A stretch of 64,000 nucleotides of DNA from a virus. Of the stretch, positions 4,029-61,933 are shown in pieces (the first letter of the stretch is position 1; each line of letters begins with the position of its first letter). Below the pieces are notes generated by a model. That model was not told the origin of the DNA and ran no database searches. It worked only from the letters and a program-made list of their open reading frames with translations. The DNA lies in the IMG/VR virus record IMGVR_UViG_3300032235_000911, positions 1-64,000 of that record, one strand, 5' to 3'. The translations under genes were made by a program, and so were the position numbers.

Positions 4029-5030
4029 TTATCCTTTTAGTACGAACTGATTACCGCGTTTTGTAAAAAGTTTATTTTCGTGTATAACTGTATTTGGTGC
4101 AAGATACTTATGACCACCAGTTGTTTCATCTTCTTCCGCAAACCATTTTTTTAATGCATCTGCAAGCGCTTGTTTTTCAGGGTCATCTAATGGAGTTGTC
4201 CCTGCGGTTGCTGGTATGCTATTTATAACAGTTAAAATATTTAACGATACTGGTGCTGCTGCTTCTGATAGATCTGCTGGTTTTGCTTTTAGAATTTTTT
4301 CAATAACCGATGTTGCTATTCCTAAAGCCTGCACCCTTTTTGATGGATCTATTTGTGGTGCCGGCGGTGTCGGTCCAAGACCGCCGAGGCTGGCAGGAAC
4401 TGTAAATAGAGCTTTGTATATTGGACTTCTGCTAAGCGATGATCTAATTTCACGAATATCTGGTGTTTTATTTTGTGGCTCTTGTTGCGTTGCGCCTGTT
4501 TGAGCTTGGGCATTTCCCATACCTGGTGCTTGCGGAACCATCATCTGCGCAAACTGTGGCTGATTTAGTTGTGTTTGCTGACCTTGTTGTTGACCGTTTT
4601 GCGACTGCTGGCCTGTTTTTGCGCCTCTCTCTTTTCTTGTACTATTTGCAGCGCCCGCAAAGGCTAAGGCTACCTGCTTGGAATCTCCCACAAACCCTGT
4701 GCTTTGTATGAACGGAGTTAGCTCGGTCATTATTTTTTTAATGTCACCCTTATGCTTTTTTGCAAGCAAATCGGCTTGTTTTTGTATCGCATTTGCATGC
4801 GCTTCTGGAATGCGTTGGTCGATAGCAAATTTTTTGGCAGCCTCGCGTTTTTTAAGCGCGCCACCTACGCCTGCATCTCCCGCAAAAAAATCCCAAATCT
4901 TGCCAAGTAATCCTCTTTTTGCAGGACGAGGTGTTCCGGTTGGAACAGCAGTTTCACCGCCTGATGGCGTAGTTGCCGGTGGCACTGGCCCTGCTTCTGA
5001 CAACTTTGTTTCTTTAACAACTAGTTTCAT
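4029..5030 (-). CDS. Hypothetical protein with Pro/Gln-rich linker and MKLVVKE N-terminus
   Basis: A 333-residue protein of unknown function. The N-terminus MKLVVKET is followed by a Pro/Thr/Gly-rich segment to about residue 36, then a globular or helical part (KIWDFFAG, AHANAIQKQADLLAKKHKG) to about 130. Next comes a low-complexity Gln/Asn/Pro/Met-rich linker at roughly 140-190 and a C-terminal domain ending in TKRGNQFVLKG. The first seven residues closely match both the N-terminus and the near-C-terminus of the 70-residue protein at 9456-9668. No catalytic motif is visible. It is co-oriented with the terminase operon and starts at ATG 5030. The architecture, two folded parts joined by a disordered linker, would suit a structural or scaffold-associated role, but that is inference. 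Confidence 0.7.
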   Translation of the reverse strand: MKLVVKETKLSEAGPVPPATTPSGGETAVPTGTPRPAKRGLLGKIWDFFAGDAGVGGALKKREAAKKFAIDQRIPEAHANAIQKQADLLAKKHKGDIKKIMTELTPFIQSTGFVGDSKQVALAFAGAANSTRKERGAKTGQQSQNGQQQGQQTQLNQPQFAQMMVPQAPGMGNAQAQTGATQQEPQNKTPDIREIRSSLSRSPIYKALFTVPASLGGLGPTPPAPQIDPSKRVQALGIATSVIEKILKAKPADLSEAAAPVSLNILTVINSIPATAGTTPLDDPEKQALADALKKWFAEEDETTGGHKYLAPNTVIHENKLFTKRGNQFVLKG

Positions 5031-5034
5031 TTTA

Positions 5035-5367
5035 TTATCTTCCTTCTAAATGTAGAATATAGCATTTAAAACAGGACTGGAATTTTGTAAGGTATATATC
5101 GTCGTTTCTTCTAAACGATAGCGTATTACAATACTTACAACTCCGGTCAATAACTTTATTAATTAGTTTCTTATCTACTAAAACCCCATCTATTTCACGT
5201 TTCTCTCGTTCCGAAACTTCTTTTAGATAGGCTTTTTTAACTTCCTCTATATATTCAGCTTCTTTTTCTGGATTCCAAGTGCCTTTTGGATTGGTTATTG
5301 CCTGCTCGCCATACTTTTCACGGATTGCTTTCTCAAGCGCAGCGACTTCATCTAACTTCCACTTCAT
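5035..5367 (-). CDS. Small zinc-ribbon-like protein
   Basis: A 110-residue protein whose N-terminal two thirds are charged and helical (KEAEYIEEVKKAYLKEVSE). Its C-terminal third carries two CxxC knuckles, CKYC near residues 78-81 and CFKC near 99-102, spaced as in a zinc ribbon. Such domains bind nucleic acid or protein partners. The family is not identified. It lies between the spanin-like gene and the 333-residue gene with 4 and 6 nt gaps, so it is almost certainly co-transcribed with them. Confidence 0.68.
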   Translation of the reverse strand: MKWKLDEVAALEKAIREKYGEQAITNPKGTWNPEKEAEYIEEVKKAYLKEVSEREKREIDGVLVDKKLINKVIDRSCKYCNTLSFRRNDDIYLTKFQSCFKCYILHLEGR

Positions 5368-5373
5368 CTGGGC

Positions 5374-5832
5374 CTACTTTGCTATTGTTAGTGTTAACTT
5401 TATTGTGCTGGCTATTACTAATCCACCAACTACTATACCTGCTATAAAACTTCCAGAAGTTAGCCAACTATTGAACTCGGCTTCCTTACTTAATCTATTT
5501 ATTTCTGTTTTATTTAGTTTTAAAAGATCTTCGTACTTTACTTTATTTATATTAAGTTCTGCTTCTTTTTTCTTTACTTCTGTTTCTAATTCTAACTTGA
5601 GTTTCTTTTGTTCGGTTTCAGCAAAAAGCCTCAGTTCTTCTTTTTCTCTATCTTGTCTTGCAATCAAATCAGCCAAACTATCAGTATGGAAAAGATAACC
5701 TTCAAACGGTGCCTCTTCACCGGCAGATAACTCAACAAAATCACCAGCCTCCTCATTTTCTTGAGCATAAAGTGGCATGCCAAACAGATAAACTGTCAGC
5801 ACAAAGAGACTGGTGATTTTTTTAAATGACAT
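5374..5832 (-). CDS. Exported coiled-coil protein with C-terminal membrane helix (possible spanin-type lysis protein)
   Basis: A 152-residue protein with three visible parts. The N-terminus is a signal peptide (KK, then a hydrophobic stretch to about residue 22, with a likely cut after LYA). Residues about 55-115 form a Glu/Lys-rich coiled coil. A C-terminal hydrophobic helix (SFIAGIVVGGLVIAS) is followed by a short basic tail. This topology, exported and then anchored at the C-terminus, resembles unimolecular spanins of phage lysis, but there is no lipobox cysteine at the signal cleavage site, so outer-membrane attachment is not shown. Its start ATG overlaps the stop of the neighbouring TM-coiled-coil gene by one base, which supports a functional pair. 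No endolysin or holin is evident beside it. Confidence 0.7.
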   Translation of the reverse strand: MSFKKITSLFVLTVYLFGMPLYAQENEEAGDFVELSAGEEAPFEGYLFHTDSLADLIARQDREKEELRLFAETEQKKLKLELETEVKKKEAELNINKVKYEDLLKLNKTEINRLSKEAEFNSWLTSGSFIAGIVVGGLVIASTIKLTLTIAK

Positions 5833-6215
5833 TACTTGCGGCGACCTTTTGCTTTTTCTTTGACGCCAAGTTTCTTTTCGATCTTTTTCTTGAAGGCCGG
5901 CTTGTCTTCCTTGGCCAGTTTCTTTAGACTCTTTGCTTCTTCTGCTGCTTTCTCTTGCGCCTTTTGGAGGGCCGCAGCCTTCTTGGCTTCAAGTGCCTCT
6001 AAATCTGCTACTTTTTGGGCCTCTAGTTCAGCATTTTTGGCCGCTAATTGCTCTTCTGCTGCCTTGCGAATAAGTTCCTCTTGACGAGCAAGAGCCTCCT
6101 GTTCTGCCTCTCCTGTTACATGCTTACGGAATGCAACAAGGGCACCAATCGTTGCCGTTACAATAAGAAGAACAGTTAGTTTTGTCTTCATAAATAGATC
6201 CTTTAGTTTTTCCAT
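5832..6215 (-). CDS. Inner-membrane-anchored coiled-coil protein (Rz/i-spanin-like candidate)
   Basis: A 127-residue protein with a short N-terminal stretch, one membrane helix (residues about 12-28, KLTVLLIVTATIGALVAF), then an Ala/Glu/Lys/Gln-rich coiled coil through about residue 95 and a strongly basic C-terminal tail ending KGRRK. Type II topology with a long periplasmic coiled coil is the hallmark of inner-membrane spanins such as lambda Rz. The next gene, overlapping by one base, is the other exported coiled-coil protein. An alternative is a generic membrane tether. A Met at residue 9 is a second possible start. Confidence 0.66.
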   Translation of the reverse strand: MEKLKDLFMKTKLTVLLIVTATIGALVAFRKHVTGEAEQEALARQEELIRKAAEEQLAAKNAELEAQKVADLEALEAKKAAALQKAQEKAAEEAKSLKKLAKEDKPAFKKKIEKKLGVKEKAKGRRK

Positions 6216-6258
6216 TTTATTTTCCTATCTGCCGTCTTGTGCGGCAACTGTTTGTATA

Positions 6259-9200
6259 CTATACCTGAATGCTGGCGAAGTTTTCACGCTTCTCAATATT
6301 GATCTGCATGTCCACAGCATCTTTTAATATATCTAGATGCGAGATTAAAAAAACAACCTTAAAATATCCTTTGATAATATCAAGAATGCGGATAAACCCT
6401 GCAAGATTATCGGCATCAAGCGAAGTTCCAGGCTCGTCCATGATGAAAAAGTCGCTTCTTGGGAGACTGGACACGGTTAGTAGTGCTAATCTGATCGCGA
6501 TTGAGGCAAGGCTCTTCTCGCTGCCGCTGCCCATTTCAAGTGGGCGTGGATCGTATTTGGGGTGTTTGATCATAATATCAAGTTTGTCGTCGTCATTCAC
6601 CAAAAATACTTGAAAGTCAACGATATTTGTTAATATTTTGTTTATTTCGCTGTTGATAACAGGAAGTTTATTTTTGATAACCTGATACGAGATACCGTTT
6701 GGATGCATTGCCTTCAAGTAGAGATCATATGCGGCAAATTGACGGCGTTTTTCAAGAAGTTCTAACTTCTGTTCTTCAAGAGTTTCAAGACGACTGGTCT
6801 GATAGCCGCTGTCGCGGTAAACCGTTGTGATTTCTTGGTTTAATGAGTTTAGTTTCATTTCAAGATTGTGAGTCTTAACCTTATAGCCTGCTTCCCTGAT
6901 GATTAGATCTTCAAGTTCGGCGCTTTCTTCCTTGCGCTTGTTCATTTCGTCAACTTGCGCTTGATATTTTGCGATTTCTTGCTTGTTGTCGGCAAGTTTT
7001 ACATTGTGCTTTTCGATTGTAAGTTGAATATTTTTTTCTTCAAGAGCAATCTTTTGTAGTAGTGATTGTGCGCTGTTCCACTTGGCAATACGGTCTTCGA
7101 GATTGAGTGCCCGTAATGGCGCTATTTCGGCCTCTAAACCCTCTACCTTGACTCCCAACTTGGCCCACTTGATCTCGTGTTCTGGGCGTTCTGCTGACGC
7201 TTCGTGGGCGTCCTTGATAAACTTACAGCTGGTGTATTGATTGCCGCAAGGTACGCCTTCAAGAAGACCAATGCGCTTCTCGATAGCGGCAGACTTCTGG
7301 CTATCAAGCCGGTATTGCGCTTCAAGTTCAGAAAGACTCTTTGTTAGTGAGTCAAGTTTATTTTTTTGTTCAAGCAATGACGCAATATCCTCAGTTACTT
7401 CAACATTCTTGCGCTTTTCGTCTAACTGATTTAGTTTGGTATTGCCTTCACGGATCCATTGCTCGTATGTAGACTTTGACGCTTGTAGTGAAGAAAGGCG
7501 GATTACTGAATCCGACATGTCTGGCCGGTTTACTTGGATAGCATAAATCTTTGACTGTGTTTGCAGTAGATCATTGCGCGCTTCTTGTAATTCGCCGTTT
7601 AGGTCTGTTATTTGTTCTTTTGATTGACGGATTGCAACTTCGGCAGTCTTGATAGTTTCTTTTGTTTTTTCGATTTCCGCGTCAAAATCAGTATCGTCAT
7701 GTTTTTTTAGATACGCTTTTACTTCGGCAGCATCACTCTTTGCGAGTTTAAACTTACTTTCAAAAATATCAAGATCAAGGAACTTAGCAAGAATGGTCTT
7801 GCGGTTCGTGCTGCCTTCGTTGATAAATGCAAGGCTATCGAGTTGGCTTGCCATGCTGGTTAGAAGGAAGTCGTCAACAGAACCCACATATCTACGGATA
7901 ATCTTGTCAGTATCGCTACGGTCCAAACCAGTAAGAAGTTCTTCATTTTCGGTGGTGAATTCAACATCAGTCTTGGCCTCAACGGTTTCTACACCCTTGC
8001 TTTTTTTGGTATACTTTGCGGAGTTTCGCTCAACTACATATTCATTGCCGTCAATATCAATAGTGAGTTTTCCACGACCCTTCTCACGATTTTGATTAAT
8101 AATATTTAGGTTCTTACGATTGTTCTTTGAAGTTGTGTTGAATACTGTATAGAGCAGTGAATCAAGAAAACTGGTCTTGCCTTCACCGTTCTTGCCAAGG
8201 ATACCAACAACGCCGCGAAGTTTAGAAAAGTCTACACGGTTACCTTCGCCGTAGTTAAATAGGTTATCCCACTCAAAGTCTTTAACTGACCATGTCACAT
8301 TGCGGGCAACATCTTCGCTCTGCTCAACCTCAACAGAATATTTTTTATTCATGTTGTAGATTTTTTCAAGAGTTTCGTTGTCGGGATTGTAATCCTTTAG
8401 GAACTCGCGAATCATTTCCTCTTGGACATCGGTCGTGCGTAAGTTGAGTGTCTTTGAGAGATTTGAAACTTCTTCAAGTGTTTCTTTGTTTGTAATGCTC
8501 TTGTTGACATAGGTAACGCTCTCTGGCTTGTAGCGAGCCTTTACCGCGTCAATAGCAGACTTTACTTTATCAATAGATAGGCTGAAATCTGAGATAAGTC
8601 GGATTCTTGCGCCCTTTGGTAGCACAGGTTCGCTTGCAAGAGAGCCGTCGATCCACAGTGGAATACTGGCGAATGGTTTTGGGTTTGGGATTTTGACGCT
8701 ATCAACATGGAACTTTTCTTTGTCTTCGATATGCCAGATAAGAAAACCCTTGTCATCGGTTTCACCAAAGTTTTGTTGGATTGTGCTACCGGCGTAGCGC
8801 ATACGCCCTTCGTCGTCTACTTTTTGGTTTGTAAGGTGGATATCGCCAAGCAGGGCATAGTCGTGACCTTCAAAGATCTCAACGCTATCGTCGCCGTGTT
8901 CAATAACATAGCCGGTATCAGTCATTACCCCACGAATAGAGCCGTGATATAATGCAATATTTATTTTATTTGCGTCACTTGGCGCACACCAGTTTTCTTT
9001 ATCAAAGATACTCAATACATTTAGTACAGTATTGTTTCCAATATCGTATTGGCCGCTTTTGTAAAGATAGTGAATGCGTTTGCTCTCAATAGCCTCAACG
9101 ATTGGGCTAATGGAATCAAGGCGGCGGTTGTTGCGTAGGTTAGTATCGTGATTACCGGCAATAATATATGTTGGAGCAATATCGCCAAGGTTTTTTAAAA

Positions 9201-55315: not shown

Positions 55316-56301
55316 TAGTTTACCTTGTTGTATATACTGTTTACATATTTTGGGCTAGAGGCGTCAAAATATTCTTTTATTAGAAGCTGGAACTTCATAT
55401 TATTATTTATAATATCTGGTATTATCTTACTAAATAGCTCTGTTGATATTAATGGGCTATTTTCCTCCATTGGTTTATCACTAATGGCCTTACCAGTGTT
55501 TAGAGCGTGTTTATGACTCGCAAACGTATTATTTAATTTTGTTTGTAGATCTATGAAATTAGACATGGATGACTGGACTTCTTGTATCGTCGATATGATA
55601 TTTTTTAATAATTCCAATAAATTATTGCCTTTAACCATCGGCTGAAGTTCGTTTGAAGGATCAGGATTATCATAACCAGCAATTATATCTATTCCGTTTA
55701 ACATTGGATCTTCGCCAGAAGATAGTTGTGCAAGATGCTGTGTTACAATTTTAACATTTTCTCTGCCTATAAGACGAATACAATCTGCCTTTGCAGCAAA
55801 GGCAGATCGGTTATCTGTATTCTCTAGCTCGTATCCCTCAAAGCCTTCAAGTTTAACTTTTACTTTTGGTAAGTTAAAGTAACTATCTATGTTTCCTCTT
55901 TGCGTTAAGTATATTCTTGCGGAATCTATTTCAAAATTCTTAGAAGAGAAATAAGCTTGACCATTGACCTTATCTATTGGGCGTAAACCCATGTGACCTG
56001 CAACAATATCTATTGCGCTAGCACCTGTTTGCCCTACTCCGCCTTTGCCGCTACCGACACCAGCAAAACGATCATTACCAAGAATTATCATGGAATTATT
56101 TTTTCCACGAATAACCTTTTCAGCTGATGTTTGTTCATAGTTGGTTGTTATCTCATCCCGCGCTGTGTTATTTACACCAGATTGTAAGGTAAAAGCTTGC
56201 GTGGCATCGATAGCAATTTTTCTAATAATATCGACTACTTCTGGGCTCAGGAAGGCGTTTCTTTCTTCCAGCTGCGAGTTTAATTTTTTTTCTTCTGCCA
56301 T
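55315..56301 (-). CDS. Baseplate spike/hub-associated protein
   Basis: A 328-residue protein. I chose ATG 56301, which overlaps the lysozyme gene's stop as TAATG and follows GAAGAGG; a TTG 24 nt upstream is less likely. The central part, SARIYLTQRGNIDSYFNLPK, ADCIRLIGRENVKIVTQHLA and NGIDIIAGYDNPD, reads as repeated short strands like a beta-helical spike. The QPMVKGNNLLELLKNIISTI segment and the FASHKHALNTG motif near residue 270 recall the LVKGdnL and SHxH parts of puncturing-device proteins. It probably forms or caps the central spike with the tail lysozyme. The assignment is from recalled motif pattern. Confidence 0.5.
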   Translation of the reverse strand: MAEEKKLNSQLEERNAFLSPEVVDIIRKIAIDATQAFTLQSGVNNTARDEITTNYEQTSAEKVIRGKNNSMIILGNDRFAGVGSGKGGVGQTGASAIDIVAGHMGLRPIDKVNGQAYFSSKNFEIDSARIYLTQRGNIDSYFNLPKVKVKLEGFEGYELENTDNRSAFAAKADCIRLIGRENVKIVTQHLAQLSSGEDPMLNGIDIIAGYDNPDPSNELQPMVKGNNLLELLKNIISTIQEVQSSMSNFIDLQTKLNNTFASHKHALNTGKAISDKPMEENSPLISTELFSKIIPDIINNNMKFQLLIKEYFDASSPKYVNSIYNKVN

Positions 56302-57881
56302 TAAATAAACCTCTTCCCGTCCCAAAATTTATCGGGTTCATTCCAGACTGAACTTTTATCTCTATCGTAAACAGTCAATAATAACTCTTTATACGAATAA
56401 CCTTTAACTATTTTTATAGGTTTTGTGAAGATATGCCAATTTGCAAGCAGCGGATCGCTATTTTTAAAGAAAAATAGTCGAGGATCTGACGCCACAAAAC
56501 CAAAGTCTTTAAGTATTTGAGTTATATCTATCACGTGACGATCTATTTTAATAATCTCTGGCTTGTCTAGCTTATATGTATTTTTTATTGAGTAAATATC
56601 AATTACCTGTTTAGTTGGTTTATACTTTATCTCGTTTAAATCTATTACTTTCTTACAATTTCCATATATCTTCAAGCCATATCCACCGGGTACGCGCCTC
56701 GTGTAATCTGGTCCGATAAAATAATCGTCTGTTTCGATGTTCGAATCTACCGTTAGCGCCGCATACGGATTTAAATTTATCTGCAAGCCAACGCGCCCAA
56801 GACTTGAGATTTTTTTATTATCTAATCTAGTATCTATAAAATCACACAATAGAGGTATACCGTAGGTATTTAATATTTCTTTTATTTGTATAATATCTTT
56901 GGCTATATCTTCTCTGGCTTTTATATATTGTGCATTAAACTTTCTTGTGCTTTTTATACCCTTTGGATAATCAATCGGCACATCTAATATTTTCATCTTT
57001 GGAAATGTTGATGGAGGACTTTGCGTTACTTTGACCTTTTGAAGTGGCTGTGCAGTAGGAAGATCAAGAACGGCAGGACGGTCAGATACTACCGCTAATC
57101 TAGGATCGCAGTCTGGATCTGTTGCTTCTATAGAAGGTGCAGAATCAAAGTCTACCGTGCCATTATTATTTGTTATGTACCGCCAGTCAGCATATGCATG
57201 ATTTCCATATAAAGTTCTCTTCGGTATCTCCTCTTGAGACTGGGTCGGTCGCTCAAATTTTTGAACAAATATCGTTGCTGCTTTTTTTATGCTTGTCAGA
57301 CTTTTCATCGGCACCAGCGTGTTTGTCTTATAATCAGTTTTTAATTCATGAATTAAAAAAGCAAGTTGCCCTTTTATTGTTCTATAATCTTCCCCGTTAT
57401 CGCTGCACCATTTTTTAAGATTAGTAAACCTACCTCCTCTTGTTTTAAATTGATCAATATGCGTACCTTCTTGCCACGGTTGATTATTTTTTAGTACTGG
57501 TGGTTTATCATTAAACAATATATGGATCAACCAAGCCCGTCTTTCTTCCGCGCTTGTCTGCTCTCCTTTCTGGATCTTTCTTTTATAAGTATCAGAGAGG
57601 GCTTTATTTGCTGGATCGTAATTTGTTTTTTCGATTGGATCAATCCACTGTGCTAAACCATAAGCACCTGTGCCGTTAGCTTTGTCGATATAAGAATAAT
57701 GTGCAGACTCAAGGCGCAGATTGCCAACAATGCCAGCCGCTGCCTGCGGGGTACAGCCAAGCTGTTTAATAAATAAATCTATCATGTATACTTCTAAAGC
57801 TCTATTGTCTACCGATAGACTATCTCCGCTTCTCTTTTTATCTTTAAGTTTTGTCTTTATTTCATCTGTGTTCATGCTCAT
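56301..57881 (-). CDS. Tail-associated lysozyme with C-terminal degenerate peptidase-like domain
   Basis: A 526-residue protein. The N-terminal domain (about residues 30-215) is a phage tail lysozyme of the Phage_lysozyme2 type: MIDLFIKQLGCTPQAAAGIV, GNLRLESAHYS with the likely catalytic Glu58, and GTGAYGLAQWI. It would cut peptidoglycan as the tail penetrates. The C-terminal domain (from about 300) contains a SSLGRVGLQINLNPYAAL segment near 355 and NWHIF near 480 that recall zinc peptidases of family M15, but the usual His and Asp ligands of the first motif appear replaced by Leu and Asn. The domain may be an inactive relic used for binding. ATGA couples it to the SGNH gene upstream. Confidence 0.75.
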   Translation of the reverse strand: MSMNTDEIKTKLKDKKRSGDSLSVDNRALEVYMIDLFIKQLGCTPQAAAGIVGNLRLESAHYSYIDKANGTGAYGLAQWIDPIEKTNYDPANKALSDTYKRKIQKGEQTSAEERRAWLIHILFNDKPPVLKNNQPWQEGTHIDQFKTRGGRFTNLKKWCSDNGEDYRTIKGQLAFLIHELKTDYKTNTLVPMKSLTSIKKAATIFVQKFERPTQSQEEIPKRTLYGNHAYADWRYITNNNGTVDFDSAPSIEATDPDCDPRLAVVSDRPAVLDLPTAQPLQKVKVTQSPPSTFPKMKILDVPIDYPKGIKSTRKFNAQYIKAREDIAKDIIQIKEILNTYGIPLLCDFIDTRLDNKKISSLGRVGLQINLNPYAALTVDSNIETDDYFIGPDYTRRVPGGYGLKIYGNCKKVIDLNEIKYKPTKQVIDIYSIKNTYKLDKPEIIKIDRHVIDITQILKDFGFVASDPRLFFFKNSDPLLANWHIFTKPIKIVKGYSYKELLLTVYDRDKSSVWNEPDKFWDGKRFI

Positions 57882-59371
57882 ACACCCATTGTATTTATGG
57901 TATTAAAGACTAGCATTGCCCATTCATCCGCCAGTTTACCGTATCTATGCAAACCATCTATGCCTCTTGAGCGCTTATCCTGTGTCTGTAAATTTTGGCT
58001 ACTAAATGCTACTATTTTTTTTATATCTGCTTTATCTTTAGCGATCTCTACAAGATTATCTGTTTGAGCGGCTGATATTTTTCGTAAAAAATCATCATAA
58101 GCTGCGTATCTTGTATCTATCGCACTTTTTTCTTTATTTGCATCGTGGCCAACCCATGCTTTTCCTAACTTTGGAGGTGAAACTAGAAAAAAATTTACGC
58201 TATTTGTTTTTGCAACTATCTTTTTTAGATTATCTATATGCTTCTGAACGCTTAAACCAATGTCGTTTGAACCATGGCCTATTATAGCCAAATCAAATGG
58301 ACCATGATATAACAGTTCGGCACTCAGATCAAATCCCTTTGGTCCAAGTTTATTATTTTTAATCGCACCATTCCAGACAGTATTTTTTGCATATGCATTT
58401 GTTCCAAGCCCGCCAACTGATAAATTTAGTACGGCAGCACCTTGTGCATTAAACAAACTGATAAGTTTTTGACCGAATTGACCTACCATATGTGAATCAC
58501 CTAGTAAGAGTATTTTTTTACCAGCATACTTTCCACTACTTGTATCTTTTGGACTCCTCAATACAGCAGGTGGTTCTCCATGAAAATTACCTTGCCTTGT
58601 CGTCTTCGAATCTCCCGCGCCACCTGATGGTGCATCCGATCCGCCGCCAGAGATGTCGGCTCCACCGGTTACGCTTTTCTTGACGCAGTCTGGTTTTTTT
58701 ACATTTTCTGAAGGTGCTCCTTGTGGTTGCGCTGTTGGGATTTCTGTCGGTGTAGCTTGTTTTTGTAGACTCACGCCGCTGTTTTTATCTCCCTCATCTC
58801 CCTTGGATCCCACACCAGTCGGTAGCACCACTCTTTTGTTGCTAAATAAACCTATATATTTATTATCAAATGGATTAGCGAGTTCGGTTGTAAAATAATT
58901 TGGTGGAACTTTAACTCTTATAATATTTCCTGGCGCTGGGTGTTCTGACTCCATCAAGGTTCTAGATTGCGGATAAAATATTTTATGATTAAGATATGCT
59001 CTCTTCGAAGTTACATCTTGACCTAATAAATCTTCATAGTGTTGAACGTTGGAAATATCTTTTGTTGGGACTTCCGCTATAACATACGGTACGCCATTTG
59101 GCGTTTTCTTAACTTGCAACGCTATGCCAAGATATTCATCTTTCTCGAGTGTTGCAGAAGAGTGCTTATTTTGCATATCTTGCGATATAAGCGAACGATA
59201 TGAAGTATTTACTGCGCTGCCTGCCGTTGCTTTTGTTATATCAAATATCTTTGCATTTACTCTAGATAATATTGCAGATACTTGGAGATAGGTTTTACCT
59301 GAGCCGTTAAAAAGCTGCTCAATGAGGTCATCGCCAAGTAAATTTTTAGATAGCTGTTCGTTTGCTGCCAT
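57878..59371 (-). CDS. Virion-associated SGNH/GDSL hydrolase
   Basis: A 497-residue protein in two halves. The first 190 residues look structural (TYLQVSAILSRVNAKIFDIT, IIRVKVPPNYFTTELANPFD) and are followed by a Gly/Ser/Pro-rich linker. The second half is an SGNH hydrolase: block I KILLLGDSHMVG (Ser near 291), block II SVGGLGTN, block III IIGHGSNDIG (Gly and Asn of the oxyanion hole near 366), and block V GIDGLHRYGKLADEWA with catalytic Asp and His near 471. All four blocks are intact, so activity is expected. SGNH enzymes remove acetyl or other acyl groups from sugars or lipids. Placement just before the tail lysozyme suggests it de-esterifies host surface glycan or peptidoglycan during entry. 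Confidence 0.82.
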   Translation of the reverse strand: MAANEQLSKNLLGDDLIEQLFNGSGKTYLQVSAILSRVNAKIFDITKATAGSAVNTSYRSLISQDMQNKHSSATLEKDEYLGIALQVKKTPNGVPYVIAEVPTKDISNVQHYEDLLGQDVTSKRAYLNHKIFYPQSRTLMESEHPAPGNIIRVKVPPNYFTTELANPFDNKYIGLFSNKRVVLPTGVGSKGDEGDKNSGVSLQKQATPTEIPTAQPQGAPSENVKKPDCVKKSVTGGADISGGGSDAPSGGAGDSKTTRQGNFHGEPPAVLRSPKDTSSGKYAGKKILLLGDSHMVGQFGQKLISLFNAQGAAVLNLSVGGLGTNAYAKNTVWNGAIKNNKLGPKGFDLSAELLYHGPFDLAIIGHGSNDIGLSVQKHIDNLKKIVAKTNSVNFFLVSPPKLGKAWVGHDANKEKSAIDTRYAAYDDFLRKISAAQTDNLVEIAKDKADIKKIVAFSSQNLQTQDKRSRGIDGLHRYGKLADEWAMLVFNTINTMGV

Positions 59372-59372
59372 A

Positions 59373-59672
59373 TTATTTCTCTTTTATCATATCAAAGAGA
59401 TTTGATTTTTCCATCTCTGACATTCCACGATCAGTGCTGCCTTCATTTTTTTGAATGATGCCGGCTATCTTAACAAGCTGCTCGTTGCTACGCTGGAGTG
59501 TTTCAAGATACTGTGATGCGATATGTCCGCTTGCAGCGTGAGCGGCATCGCCTGTTTTTTTCATATAAACAACAAGATCGGCCAACAGCATTTCTGCAGT
59601 TGACCGATCATCTTCTATGTTCTTGATGCTTGATTCTATTATATCATTCAGGCTGCGCTTGGTCTTGGACAT
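59373..59672 (-). CDS. Candidate small terminase subunit (T4 gp16-like), uncertain
   Basis: A 99-residue helical protein. ATG 59672 (MSKTKRSLND) is chosen because AAAGG is 9 nt upstream; an ATG 9 nt earlier abuts that signal. The central helices (AEMLLADLVVYMKKTGDAAH, IASQYLETLQRSNEQLVKIA) show the same pattern as the T4 gp16 core, in which a long helix ending in K/A is followed by a His/Ala-rich turn and a second helix with TxxR and LxK. The C-terminus MEKSNLFDMIKEK is short. Gp16 forms a ring that regulates packaging. The gene overlaps the sigma factor by 29 nt. This is pattern likeness only. Confidence 0.4.
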   Translation of the reverse strand: MSKTKRSLNDIIESSIKNIEDDRSTAEMLLADLVVYMKKTGDAAHAASGHIASQYLETLQRSNEQLVKIAGIIQKNEGSTDRGMSEMEKSNLFDMIKEK

Positions 59673-60720
59673 TTTCTTCATCCTTTAAGTGGGTCACGGA
59701 CCCACGATTCCATTTATTGATGAAGTAATTATACCTTGTTTTAAATTTTTTCAGTCCAGATACGATTTGCTTAGTTGTTAATCCAGTTAATTCCCGCAAA
59801 TATAAATAAACAGCCTTTTTATTAAAGATTTGTATGTCATCTTGGTTTTTTAATATTATTTTAATAGCCTCATAGACCTTGCGTTCGTTACCTTTTAGAG
59901 AAAGTTGGTCCCATTCATCCATTTCTTGCCATAAAGCTTTCCAAAATTCTTCTTTTTCACGTTCTTCATCGTAGCCGTTTGTTGTAAATAGATGCTCTTC
60001 TTCAAATTCCTGGGTAATGTCGTCAAGGCTTACCTCTCGTCCGCTGCTGTGTTTCTTAACCTTGTGAATGAACCAGTTTTTTGTGATAACAGAGAAATAG
60101 GAGAATGCCTTGCTGCCCTTACTTGTATCAAACTTATCAAGAATCGTTGTAAGCCAGGTCTTGCATTCGTCTTTTAAATCTTCTATGTTGGGTAGACTTG
60201 TGAACTTATAGGTGTAAACAATCTTATCAACCATTTCATTGAATGCTGGCTGGATAAGTGTTATATAAAGTATGCTTTTTTCATTACGATCCGTGCTGCT
60301 TGCATACTTTACGATTGCTTCTTCGTGCAGTTTGGTGAAATATTGATTCTTTTTTACCTCTTCTTTAGCCGGTAGGGACGACTCTACGATAACGACCGGC
60401 TTCTTGGGAGACTTTTTGACCTTCGGGGAGGCGAATGACGCCTTTGGTGGACGCCCCCTGCGCTTCATCAACGTAACCTTCGGTTTCGCCGTCTTCTTCA
60501 CTATCTTCTTCGCTGTCCGCGTAGCCTTCAAACTGGGCTTTGATTTTACTTTGGACTTGGGCTTTGCCTTGGTAGATACTGTTCGCTTCAAGGCCCGTTT
60601 CGTCTTGGGTTTGGCCTTGACTGCCTTCTTCTTGGATGGTGACGCCTTTCGCAAACTCTTGCGCGGCTTCGATAACGAAATTTGTTTCTTGGATCGCCCT
60701 TTTGATGCTTTCTTCGCCAT
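59644..60720 (-). CDS. Late-transcription sigma factor, T4 gp55-like, with possible H1-like N-terminal extension
   Basis: The C-terminal 240 residues resemble gp55-type sigma factors: a region-2-like part (YFTKLHEEAIVKYASSTDRN, FDTSKGSKAFSYFSVITKNW, FIHKVKKHS) and a C-terminal helical part with LREL-TGLTTKQIVSGLKKF. It would direct host RNA polymerase to late promoters. If translation starts at 60720 (GGAAG is 6 nt upstream), the first 115 residues are Lys/Arg/Pro/Ser-rich like histone H1, with an AT-hook-like KRRGRPPK near 86-93. This part lies entirely within another open frame (60365-60892). A second start at 60468 (MKRRGRPPK), behind AAGG, would shorten it to 274 residues. The sigma part is well supported; the extension is not settled. 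Confidence 0.72.
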   Translation of the reverse strand: MAKKASKGRSKKQISLSKPRKSLRKASPSKKKAVKAKPKTKRALKRTVSTKAKPKSKVKSKPSLKATRTAKKIVKKTAKPKVTLMKRRGRPPKASFASPKVKKSPKKPVVIVESSLPAKEEVKKNQYFTKLHEEAIVKYASSTDRNEKSILYITLIQPAFNEMVDKIVYTYKFTSLPNIEDLKDECKTWLTTILDKFDTSKGSKAFSYFSVITKNWFIHKVKKHSSGREVSLDDITQEFEEEHLFTTNGYDEEREKEEFWKALWQEMDEWDQLSLKGNERKVYEAIKIILKNQDDIQIFNKKAVYLYLRELTGLTTKQIVSGLKKFKTRYNYFINKWNRGSVTHLKDEENVQDQAQPE

Positions 60721-60892
60721 GAAATTCTTCCAATGTATATAAATTTTTGAGTGATTCGCTATACTCTTCTAACATTATAGCGAATTCCTTACGAACTTCA
60801 GCATCATACCAGAAACGCAGAAGTAGTTTACGAATATACCATATAAATAGGATATTTACAGAGAAAGATAAGACTAACAGTAAATAAATCAT
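60365..60892 (-). CDS. Membrane-anchored protein with acidic C-terminal tail, overlapping the sigma gene
   Basis: A 175-residue protein. An N-terminal membrane helix (MIYLLLVLSFSVNILFIWYI) is followed by a helical cytoplasmic part (FAIMLEEYSESLKNLYTLEE) and an acidic, Gln/Gly-rich tail (ADSEEDSEEDGETEGYVDE). The N-terminal 60-70 residues look like a conserved small phage protein. The tail occupies the same 356 nt as the sigma factor's Lys-rich N-terminus in another frame. In this frame Glu is nearly always GAA and Gln mostly CAA, which is ordinary for the genome. The start overlaps the upstream zinc-ribbon gene's stop (ATGA). Confidence 0.66.
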   Translation of the reverse strand: MIYLLLVLSFSVNILFIWYIRKLLLRFWYDAEVRKEFAIMLEEYSESLKNLYTLEEFHGEESIKRAIQETNFVIEAAQEFAKGVTIQEEGSQGQTQDETGLEANSIYQGKAQVQSKIKAQFEGYADSEEDSEEDGETEGYVDEAQGASTKGVIRLPEGQKVSQEAGRYRRVVPTG

Positions 60893-61140
60893 GGGGTATA
60901 GTCCTTTCGACTACTTTGCTTGTCCGCTTCCAATACTTCGCGGCTTTCTTCTATGAACTTTTCTACCCTTTGACCAGCAGAAGTTTCTTTTTTAGTATCT
61001 TCTCGCCAGTTGAGAGTAGGAATAACCTTTGAAACTTCAATGGATTGGCAGCGTGGGCATGGACCGCCCGCTTCCTCTGCGCCATGAAAGGTCTTGTACG
61101 AGCCTTTGCATGGCTTACAGTAATACTCATAGAAAGGCAC
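60889..61140 (-). CDS. FmdB-type zinc-ribbon protein
   Basis: An 83-residue protein opening MPFYEYYCKPCKGSYKTFHG and continuing with CPRCQS, the standard FmdB/CxxC-CxxC zinc ribbon start. A polar helical tail follows (GQRVEKFIEESREVLEADKQ). Such proteins are thought to be nucleic-acid-binding or regulatory adapters; in phages of this type they often lie near late regulators. Here it is coupled to the membrane protein gene and lies just upstream of the sigma factor. Confidence 0.75.
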   Translation of the reverse strand: MPFYEYYCKPCKGSYKTFHGAEEAGGPCPRCQSIEVSKVIPTLNWREDTKKETSAGQRVEKFIEESREVLEADKQSSRKDYTP

Positions 61141-61143
61141 CGG

Positions 61144-61326
61144 TTACTCCGTTACAAACTTTGGTGGCTGCATTGCGATACTGGTTGGTGGATTTGCGAC
61201 ATAGAGATCGTCGCCTTCAACCTTGAAGTCAAATCCCTTGAGGGTTGGTACAATATCGCTCTGTTCCATAAGTGACTTCTGGAGTGCGATCATAATCGCA
61301 CTAAGTGCCTGATTGCTCAATGTCAT
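61144..61326 (-). CDS. Short conserved-type protein [11 protein letters not shown]...
   Basis: A 60-residue protein ([20 protein letters not shown], then [27 protein letters not shown]) with one helix and a beta hairpin. I do not recognise a named domain. Its start overlaps the HNH gene by 26 nt. An 11-codon relic with nearly the same N-terminal peptide lies on the other side of the HNH gene (61934-61969), which indicates that the HNH gene entered at this locus. It lies 3 nt upstream of the FmdB-type gene. Confidence 0.7.
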
Positions 61327-61876
61327 TTGTTTTATCCTTTTTGTATAGTTGTAAAATTTCTTCTGCCCATTCTATTAAATCTTCTACTCTTTGGCCTTTT
61401 GGTTGCTTTGTAGACCATAATTCTAAATTTTCTATTCTGTTATCACTTCTAACACCGTTGATATGATGTACATTTTCATGTGGTAAAAGATATCTTCCAA
61501 TCTTTTTTTCCATAACGAGCCTGTGTTCAGCAACATAACCTTTTTTTTGCTTATATGGATGGTCGTCGACACCGATTAAAATATACCCAGCATGAGTCAT
61601 GTATGCATGCTTTGGGTTCCTCCTCCTCTTACGACAATTTAAACGTCCAGAGCAGGAGTAGCATCTTGTCGACGCTCTTGCTATCTTTTTTCCACACCCT
61701 CCTGCGCAGTCTTTATCTTTTATTCTTGCCGTTTTAACTTTTTGTTCTGCTGGTTTACTTTTTCTTTTACCAGAGCAGTATACACATATTTTTGATTTTC
61801 TTACTATTTTTCTTCCACATCCATCTTCGCAATCTTTATCTTTTTTATTCGCGAATCTTGGCAACTTTCGTTTCAT
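61301..61876 (-). CDS. HNH homing-type endonuclease with duplicated zinc fingers
   Basis: A 191-residue protein from ATG 61876, which has AAAGGAG 7 nt upstream; an earlier start has no such signal. The N-terminus holds two copies of a Cys4 finger: [20 protein letters not shown] with CVYC, then [20 protein letters not shown] with CYSC. The catalytic HNH domain follows: [38 protein letters not shown], then a C-terminal helix. Such enzymes are usually free-standing mobile genes that cut relatives lacking them. The 3' end runs into the first codons of the short gene at 61144. It is probably active, as the His-His and Asn residues of the motif are present. Confidence 0.86.
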
Positions 61877-61933
61877 TTTGTTATCTCCTTTAATTAAATA
61901 GAAAGAGCATAACAAAAAGACTCATTATTTTCA

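Follow-up and report, generated by a model that had tools for sequence, protein, structure and literature searches.

The window, the whole stretch of 64,000 nucleotides that was analysed, is part of a 95.6-kb virus record, and by its translations it looks like a T4-like phage, a reading that outside the locus described here relies mostly on translations and not on family searches. In the ORF list and the translations, a gene for a small membrane protein and a gene for a gp55-like sigma factor run together on the minus strand through a shared stretch of 356 nt, with the sigma frame lying +1 relative to the membrane-protein frame (Table 1). The overlap of two open frames on one strand is present as an earlier note on this DNA had described it. 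So is the local rise in GC content that it had remarked on, with values of 0.49-0.52 in the shared stretch versus 0.29-0.41 in 59700-60299 and 0.32-0.36 in 60700-60999. The GC content rises because C replaces T at the wobble positions of the membrane frame, which are the second positions of the sigma codons. A search of the stretch for tandem repeats found none. A 112-aa open frame also crosses the overlap on the opposite strand (60404-60742, +); the closest relative, L002, is likewise open there, and this frame is probably a by-product of the coding strand, which is purine-rich and has few stops. Two Erwinia phages match a short piece of the Glu-rich part over 33 nt.

Table 1. Features of the membrane protein-sigma factor locus (positions in the window).
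Feature	Position	Strand	Basis or remark
FmdB-like zinc-ribbon protein, GTG start	60889..61140	-	Precedes the membrane gene; same arrangement in many relatives
One-helix membrane protein, 175 aa, acidic Gln/Gly-rich C-terminal tail	60892..60365	-	ORF; homologue next to sigma in relatives
GGAAGAATTTC-ATG, ribosome site and predicted sigma start	60718..60732	-	Moderate site; overlies the membrane-protein codons for L-E-E-F-H-G, a context shared by L002
Gp55-like late sigma factor, 358 aa	60720..59644	-	phrog_234 match
Putative dual-coding stretch	60365..60720	-	356 nt; ORF coordinates and recoding tests
Basic N-terminal arm of sigma, residues 1-123	60352..60720	-	Composition and structure prediction; predicted disordered
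Internal Met85 codon, possible second start	60466..60468	-	Not conserved in L002
AT-hook-like KRRGRPPK	60436..60465	-	Below Pfam cut-off, not conserved
C-terminal motif IRLxEGxxVSQxAxxYxRVV of the membrane protein	60377..60436	-	Common to L002
Helical sigma core, conserved, residues 123-358	59644..60354	-	Alignment and predicted structure

The upstream gene encodes a protein with a single helix near its N terminus, Arg and Lys residues right behind the helix, a conserved motif around Y-Y/F-G-D/E and, usually in the family, an acidic tail; the proposal of an acidic, Gln/Gly-rich tail on a membrane protein is borne out. The Arg and Lys residues directly after the helix indicate that the C-terminal tail is likely cytoplasmic. 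Near its C terminus, the window protein shares a motif of 20 residues with that of L002. When an anti-sigma domain was sought in the protein, no Pfam match was obtained, and the only PHROG match, to a family without a function, was insignificant.

The core of the downstream protein matches phrog_234, the late sigma factor family (E value of 0.00024), as do 32 of 35 relatives (best E value of 1.7e-7), which bears out its identification as gp55-like. The AlphaFold2 model comprises a confident helical core that starts at about residue 130 and, ahead of it, residues 1-122 without structure (pLDDT of about 50). In a Foldseek comparison with the PDB, sigma factors dominate the top rows, weakly (E values of 0.03 or worse), and 7D7C and 7D7D, structures of T4 gp55, are not among the matches listed; Pfam Sigma70_r2 is detected in 3 of 34 members (best E value of 0.0037), and a PDB sequence search with the family profile gave no match. 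The arm (residues 1-123) contains 31% K, 13% S, 11% A and 10% P, for a net charge of +44. It is rich in Lys and in Ser, Ala, Pro and Thr, has no hydrophobic core and is disordered in the model, all of which are traits of histone H1-like basic tails; the resemblance is one of composition, not of homology. Composition and model thus support the H1-like disordered arm that had been proposed, and the AT-hook proposed with it stands only in part: KRRGRPPK is present, but it scores 14.4 bits against AT-hook family PF02178, below the Pfam cut-off of 17.4, and the motif is absent from L002; a conserved AT-hook is not supported.

A total of 115 unique relatives, a count that includes the window, was collected from IMG/VR. 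All share the sigma core, and the N terminus that precedes it is basic (median 13 residues). The membrane gene lies directly upstream of sigma at 91 of the 91 loci with enough sequence to be tested, including L110, whose protein falls just under the hydropathy cut-off and is clearly homologous; the pair also occurs in two contigs from bacterial genomes. Overlaps longer than 4 nt, found at 73 loci, are all in one phase, while at ten loci the two genes touch by a single nucleotide and at eight they abut or leave a gap. The overlap has a median of 36.5 nt, and the longest measure 356 nt (window), 239 nt (L002), 122, 116 and 107 nt. Overlap of the membrane and sigma genes is a rule of this family, and that of the window is its longest case found. 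Further arms as long as that of L002, whose sigma core is 77% identical to that of the window, were sought with the membrane protein, the L002 sigma, the C-terminal half of sigma and a DNA pattern of the start context, and in bacterial genomes; none was found. The long arm is common to the window phage and this one close relative, and conservation does not extend to its individual residues. Stops in the sigma frame upstream of 60468, named beforehand as an observation that would speak against the arm, do occur in distant relatives, which have a short basic N terminus, but not in L002; judged by these sequences, the long arm is lineage-specific and not spurious.

The opposite charges of the two proteins extend beyond the overlaps. 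Where the arms of the family lie outside overlaps, K/R make up 49% of their residues and D/E 2%. Loci that lack a long overlap keep both the acidic tail (160 of 360 residues are D/E) and the basic start, so that charge in the family is not a mere by-product of overlap. Among distant cultured phages, Flavobacterium phage immuto and Microcystis phage Mel-JY01, whose sigma factors are only about 30% identical, also carry a one-helix protein, which overlaps sigma by 20 and 29 nt, respectively. In an Ochrobactrum T4-like phage, the late sigma gene sits behind that of the UvsW helicase, not behind a membrane gene.

Codon usage provides the evidence on whether both frames are constrained. The second position of each sigma codon is the wobble position of a membrane codon, and constraint on the membrane protein alone predicts wobble bases that follow the usage of the genome. 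The membrane frame was recoded synonymously with genome codon usage, and the sigma frame was then scored; it stays open in 0.28% of recodings of the window and 0.58% of those of L002. K, R, S, T, P, A and G account for 94 residues of the sigma frame, compared with 57.3 expected (z = 9.1), a number never reached in the recodings, and the same test gives z = 7.7 for L002. Hydrophobic residues number 20 where 34 are expected. Lys and Arg show a modest excess (45 observed, 38.6 expected), since GAA and CAA codons read one base on yield most of these residues mechanically. The suspicion that the Lys-rich reading is simply a shifted reading of CAA/GAA-rich codons is therefore right for the charge but wrong for the rest: the absence of stops, the loss of hydrophobic residues and the filling with S, T, P and A are not explained by those codons.

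Several controls accompany this test. The 52 codons that immediately precede the sigma ATG give z = -0.6, and those before the ATG of L002 give 0.6. In 231 segments of 116 codons drawn from the other genes of the window, the +1 frame is never open; over the other genes of the window and of L002, z has a mean of about 0.15, a standard deviation of 1.4-1.6 and maxima of 5.3 and 4.4, respectively. In the reverse test, with the sigma arm held fixed, no recoding leaves the membrane frame open (0/20000), and the real tail is far more acidic than expected. Across the family, T occupies 0.14 of the wobble positions of membrane codons inside overlaps versus 0.34 (67 loci, a comparison uncorrected for shared ancestry); the bias is present inside overlaps and absent from the rest of the same genes. 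No relative with the same wobble bias and yet with stops in the sigma frame was found. The likelihood breakpoint of wobble use in the membrane gene is fuzzy, falling at codon 34 in the window and codon 104 in L002, compared with an ATG at codon 58. A position-by-position comparison of divergence in each frame between the window and L002 was dropped, as the two have diverged and changed in length so far that too few codons can be aligned. Forward and reverse recoding, together with the internal and genome-wide controls, support the two coding frames of the earlier note; the tests favour selection on both frames, and hence an overlap that codon usage marks as truly dual-coding.

These data also bear on a reading in which both frames were opened by chance, through a GC-biased or repeat-driven local expansion that left the sigma frame unselected. 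It would fit the local GC rise and the different lengths of the shared tail in the two long-arm phages. Against it, the stretch lacks tandem repeats, the bias extends over membrane codons 59-95, which are ancestral (z = 5.9 in the window and 4.3 in L002), and spares those ahead of the ATG, and in the wider family it is confined to overlaps; chance opening is judged extremely unlikely.

The position at which sigma translation starts is a separate matter. The ribosome sites that had been called plausible are indeed present, GGAAG ahead of 60720 (-3.3 kcal/mol) and AAGG ahead of 60468 (-3.5 kcal/mol), but both are only moderate, and 15-18% of random ATGs have sites as good as these. Shine-Dalgarno strength was accordingly rejected as proof of a start. 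Should sigma instead begin at Met85 (60468), the arm before it would not be made and its reading would be a shifted version of the Glu/Gln-rich tail. Such a start has an equally good ribosome site, the shifted frame would obtain most of its Lys and Arg free of cost, and most relatives have stops in this frame. However, the segment from the ATG to Met85 gives z = 8.0 for the wobble bases of the H1-like reading and has no stops where 3.2 are expected. L002, which has the same start as the window sigma, has neither an equivalent of Met85 nor any further ATG in frame ahead of the core, and the segment upstream of its GTG63 gives z = 5.2. Because the bias is strong upstream of Met85 and missing before the ATG, the arm upstream of Met85 is counted as coding, and a start solely at Met85 is considered very unlikely. 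A related reading holds that both forms are made at a regulated ratio, a long one from 60720 and a shorter, still basic one from Met85. The moderate sites at both starts are compatible with it, as are the bias of the segment after Met85 (z = 4.8) and a GTG at codon 63 of L002 with a fair site (-4.7), yet the internal starts of the two phages do not coincide in position and derive from different membrane-protein codons, and production of two forms is regarded as unlikely.

The relatives suggest how the long arm, read from the start at 60720, may have arisen. The codons for [YH]-G in the conserved membrane motif contain the sigma ATG, and a latent ATG occupies this position in 69 of 87 relatives, with an open frame behind it in 0 of the 69; across the 87, the sigma frame behind the position of the latent start contains a median of 3 stops. 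As the latent ATG is widespread and the frame behind it closed in every case, the sigma start probably moved upstream in an ancestor of the window phage and L002. Most relatives lack the DNA that follows about membrane codon 95 or have a short version of it, and the window and L002 differ by 39 codons in its length. In the family at large, a small membrane gene is directly followed by a gp55-like sigma gene, and the end of the former, which usually codes for an acidic tail, commonly overlaps the start of the latter, with its short basic patch, by tens of bases. In the lineage of the window phage and L002, initiation of sigma would have shifted upstream by about 110 nt, onto an ATG and a weak ribosome site already latent in the E-E-F-Y/H-G codons, so that the ancestral membrane codons 59-95 would have been overprinted by the sigma frame. 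In-frame length changes in the newer DNA beyond about codon 95 would then have extended the acidic tail and, with it, the basic arm. The alignments make a start shift followed by joint growth the probable history.

As to function, the arm would act as a disordered polycation that adds non-specific grip on DNA to sigma or to the sigma-RNA polymerase complex, and the short KKRRR patches of the relatives would grip DNA likewise. Judged by its composition and modelled disorder, the arm most likely raises the non-specific DNA affinity of sigma or the holoenzyme, and its translation is predicted as likely to be coupled to that of the membrane protein. Taken as a whole, the explanation by a dual-coding overlap, an upstream start shift and a polycation arm appears reasonably probable from the sequence comparisons.

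The opposite charges also allow a reading in which the tails bind to one another, with the membrane protein tethering or restraining the late sigma and the overlap keeping the pair matched. The membrane gene adjoins sigma at every testable locus, the arrangement that a membrane anti-sigma factor encoded beside its sigma would have, and a similar one-helix protein lies upstream even where sigma is highly diverged; the tail should be cytoplasmic, and both charges persist where no long overlap exists. There are precedents for overlapping genes whose products interact, XL-alpha-s/Alex (PMC2329644) and the Rz/Rz1 spanins (PMC6139136). On the other hand, acidic and basic charge outside the overlap are uncorrelated (rho = -0.05), the Ochrobactrum phage has a late sigma without this neighbour, and the membrane protein has no known domain of anti-sigma type in Pfam or PHROG. 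Tail-tail binding seems rather unlikely; if it did occur, late transcription would be placed at the membrane, or sigma would be held inactive until needed, consequences as doubtful as the binding itself.

The DNA-gripping arm preferred here can be compared with known sigma factors. The N-terminal region of T4 gp55 is poorly conserved and has no clear density (PMC7892883; structures 7D7C/7D7D). Like T4 gp55, the window sigma combines a helical, sigma-like core of phrog_234 type with a variable N terminus, but unlike that of gp55, its arm is long, highly charged and encoded inside another gene. In the primary sigma factor SigA of Mycobacterium tuberculosis, a long disordered N-terminal arm matters (PMC10011835). 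It shares with the window sigma the position of a long disordered extension before structured sigma domains; however, its origin is unrelated, its critical residues, 132-179, are acidic, and no overlapping gene is present there. Long unidirectional overlaps are mostly of phase 1, with 5' extension of the downstream gene as one described route (PMC3887535), and the overlap of the window has the same strand relation and phase. By contrast with viral overlaps in general, 84% of which are shorter than 50 nt (PMC7017920), it is much longer, and its overlapping codons carry a strong selection signal in both frames. In XL-alpha-s/Alex and Rz/Rz1, the second protein is likewise encoded +1 to the first; there the products interact, whereas interaction is conjectured here and the second frame encodes an N-terminal arm, not a whole protein. 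What is new is an unusually long case of known kinds, a long phase-1 overlap and a gp55-like sigma.

It is uncommon for large phages to have long same-strand overlaps with both genes under constraint, such overlaps are seldom demonstrated to be genuine, and this family would provide plausible steps towards one, from a short ancestral overlap through a latent start codon and an upstream shift to joint growth. The charges mirror each other because Glu codons read one base on are Lys codons, so that an acidic tail can supply a basic arm almost free. The unbroken pairing of membrane protein and late sigma suggests an extra layer of late-gene control, of which no description was found in the literature.

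The FmdB-like gene belongs to a conserved gene block. A 60-aa ORF (61144-61326, -) precedes it and has a counterpart in L002. Upstream of the block, 61301-61915 (-) encodes an HNH-endonuclease-like protein with Cys-rich, zinc-finger-like repeats by translation; none was seen in the matching stretch of L002. A 102-aa ORF (59373-59681, -), also found in L002, shares 38 nt with the 3' end of sigma, or 29 nt if read from the better-placed ATG at 59672, and with the membrane gene at its 5' end, sigma is thus overlapped at both ends. Downstream of this ORF, 57878-59371 and 56301-57881 (-) look like baseplate or tail-hub proteins with different enzymatic inserts. A weak match to GDSL/SGNH hydrolases is found there (Pfam E value of 0.0059, below cut-off), and the protein of L002 at 4974-6911 reads like one that carries an M23-type peptidase, which suggests that lytic domains have been swapped between close relatives.
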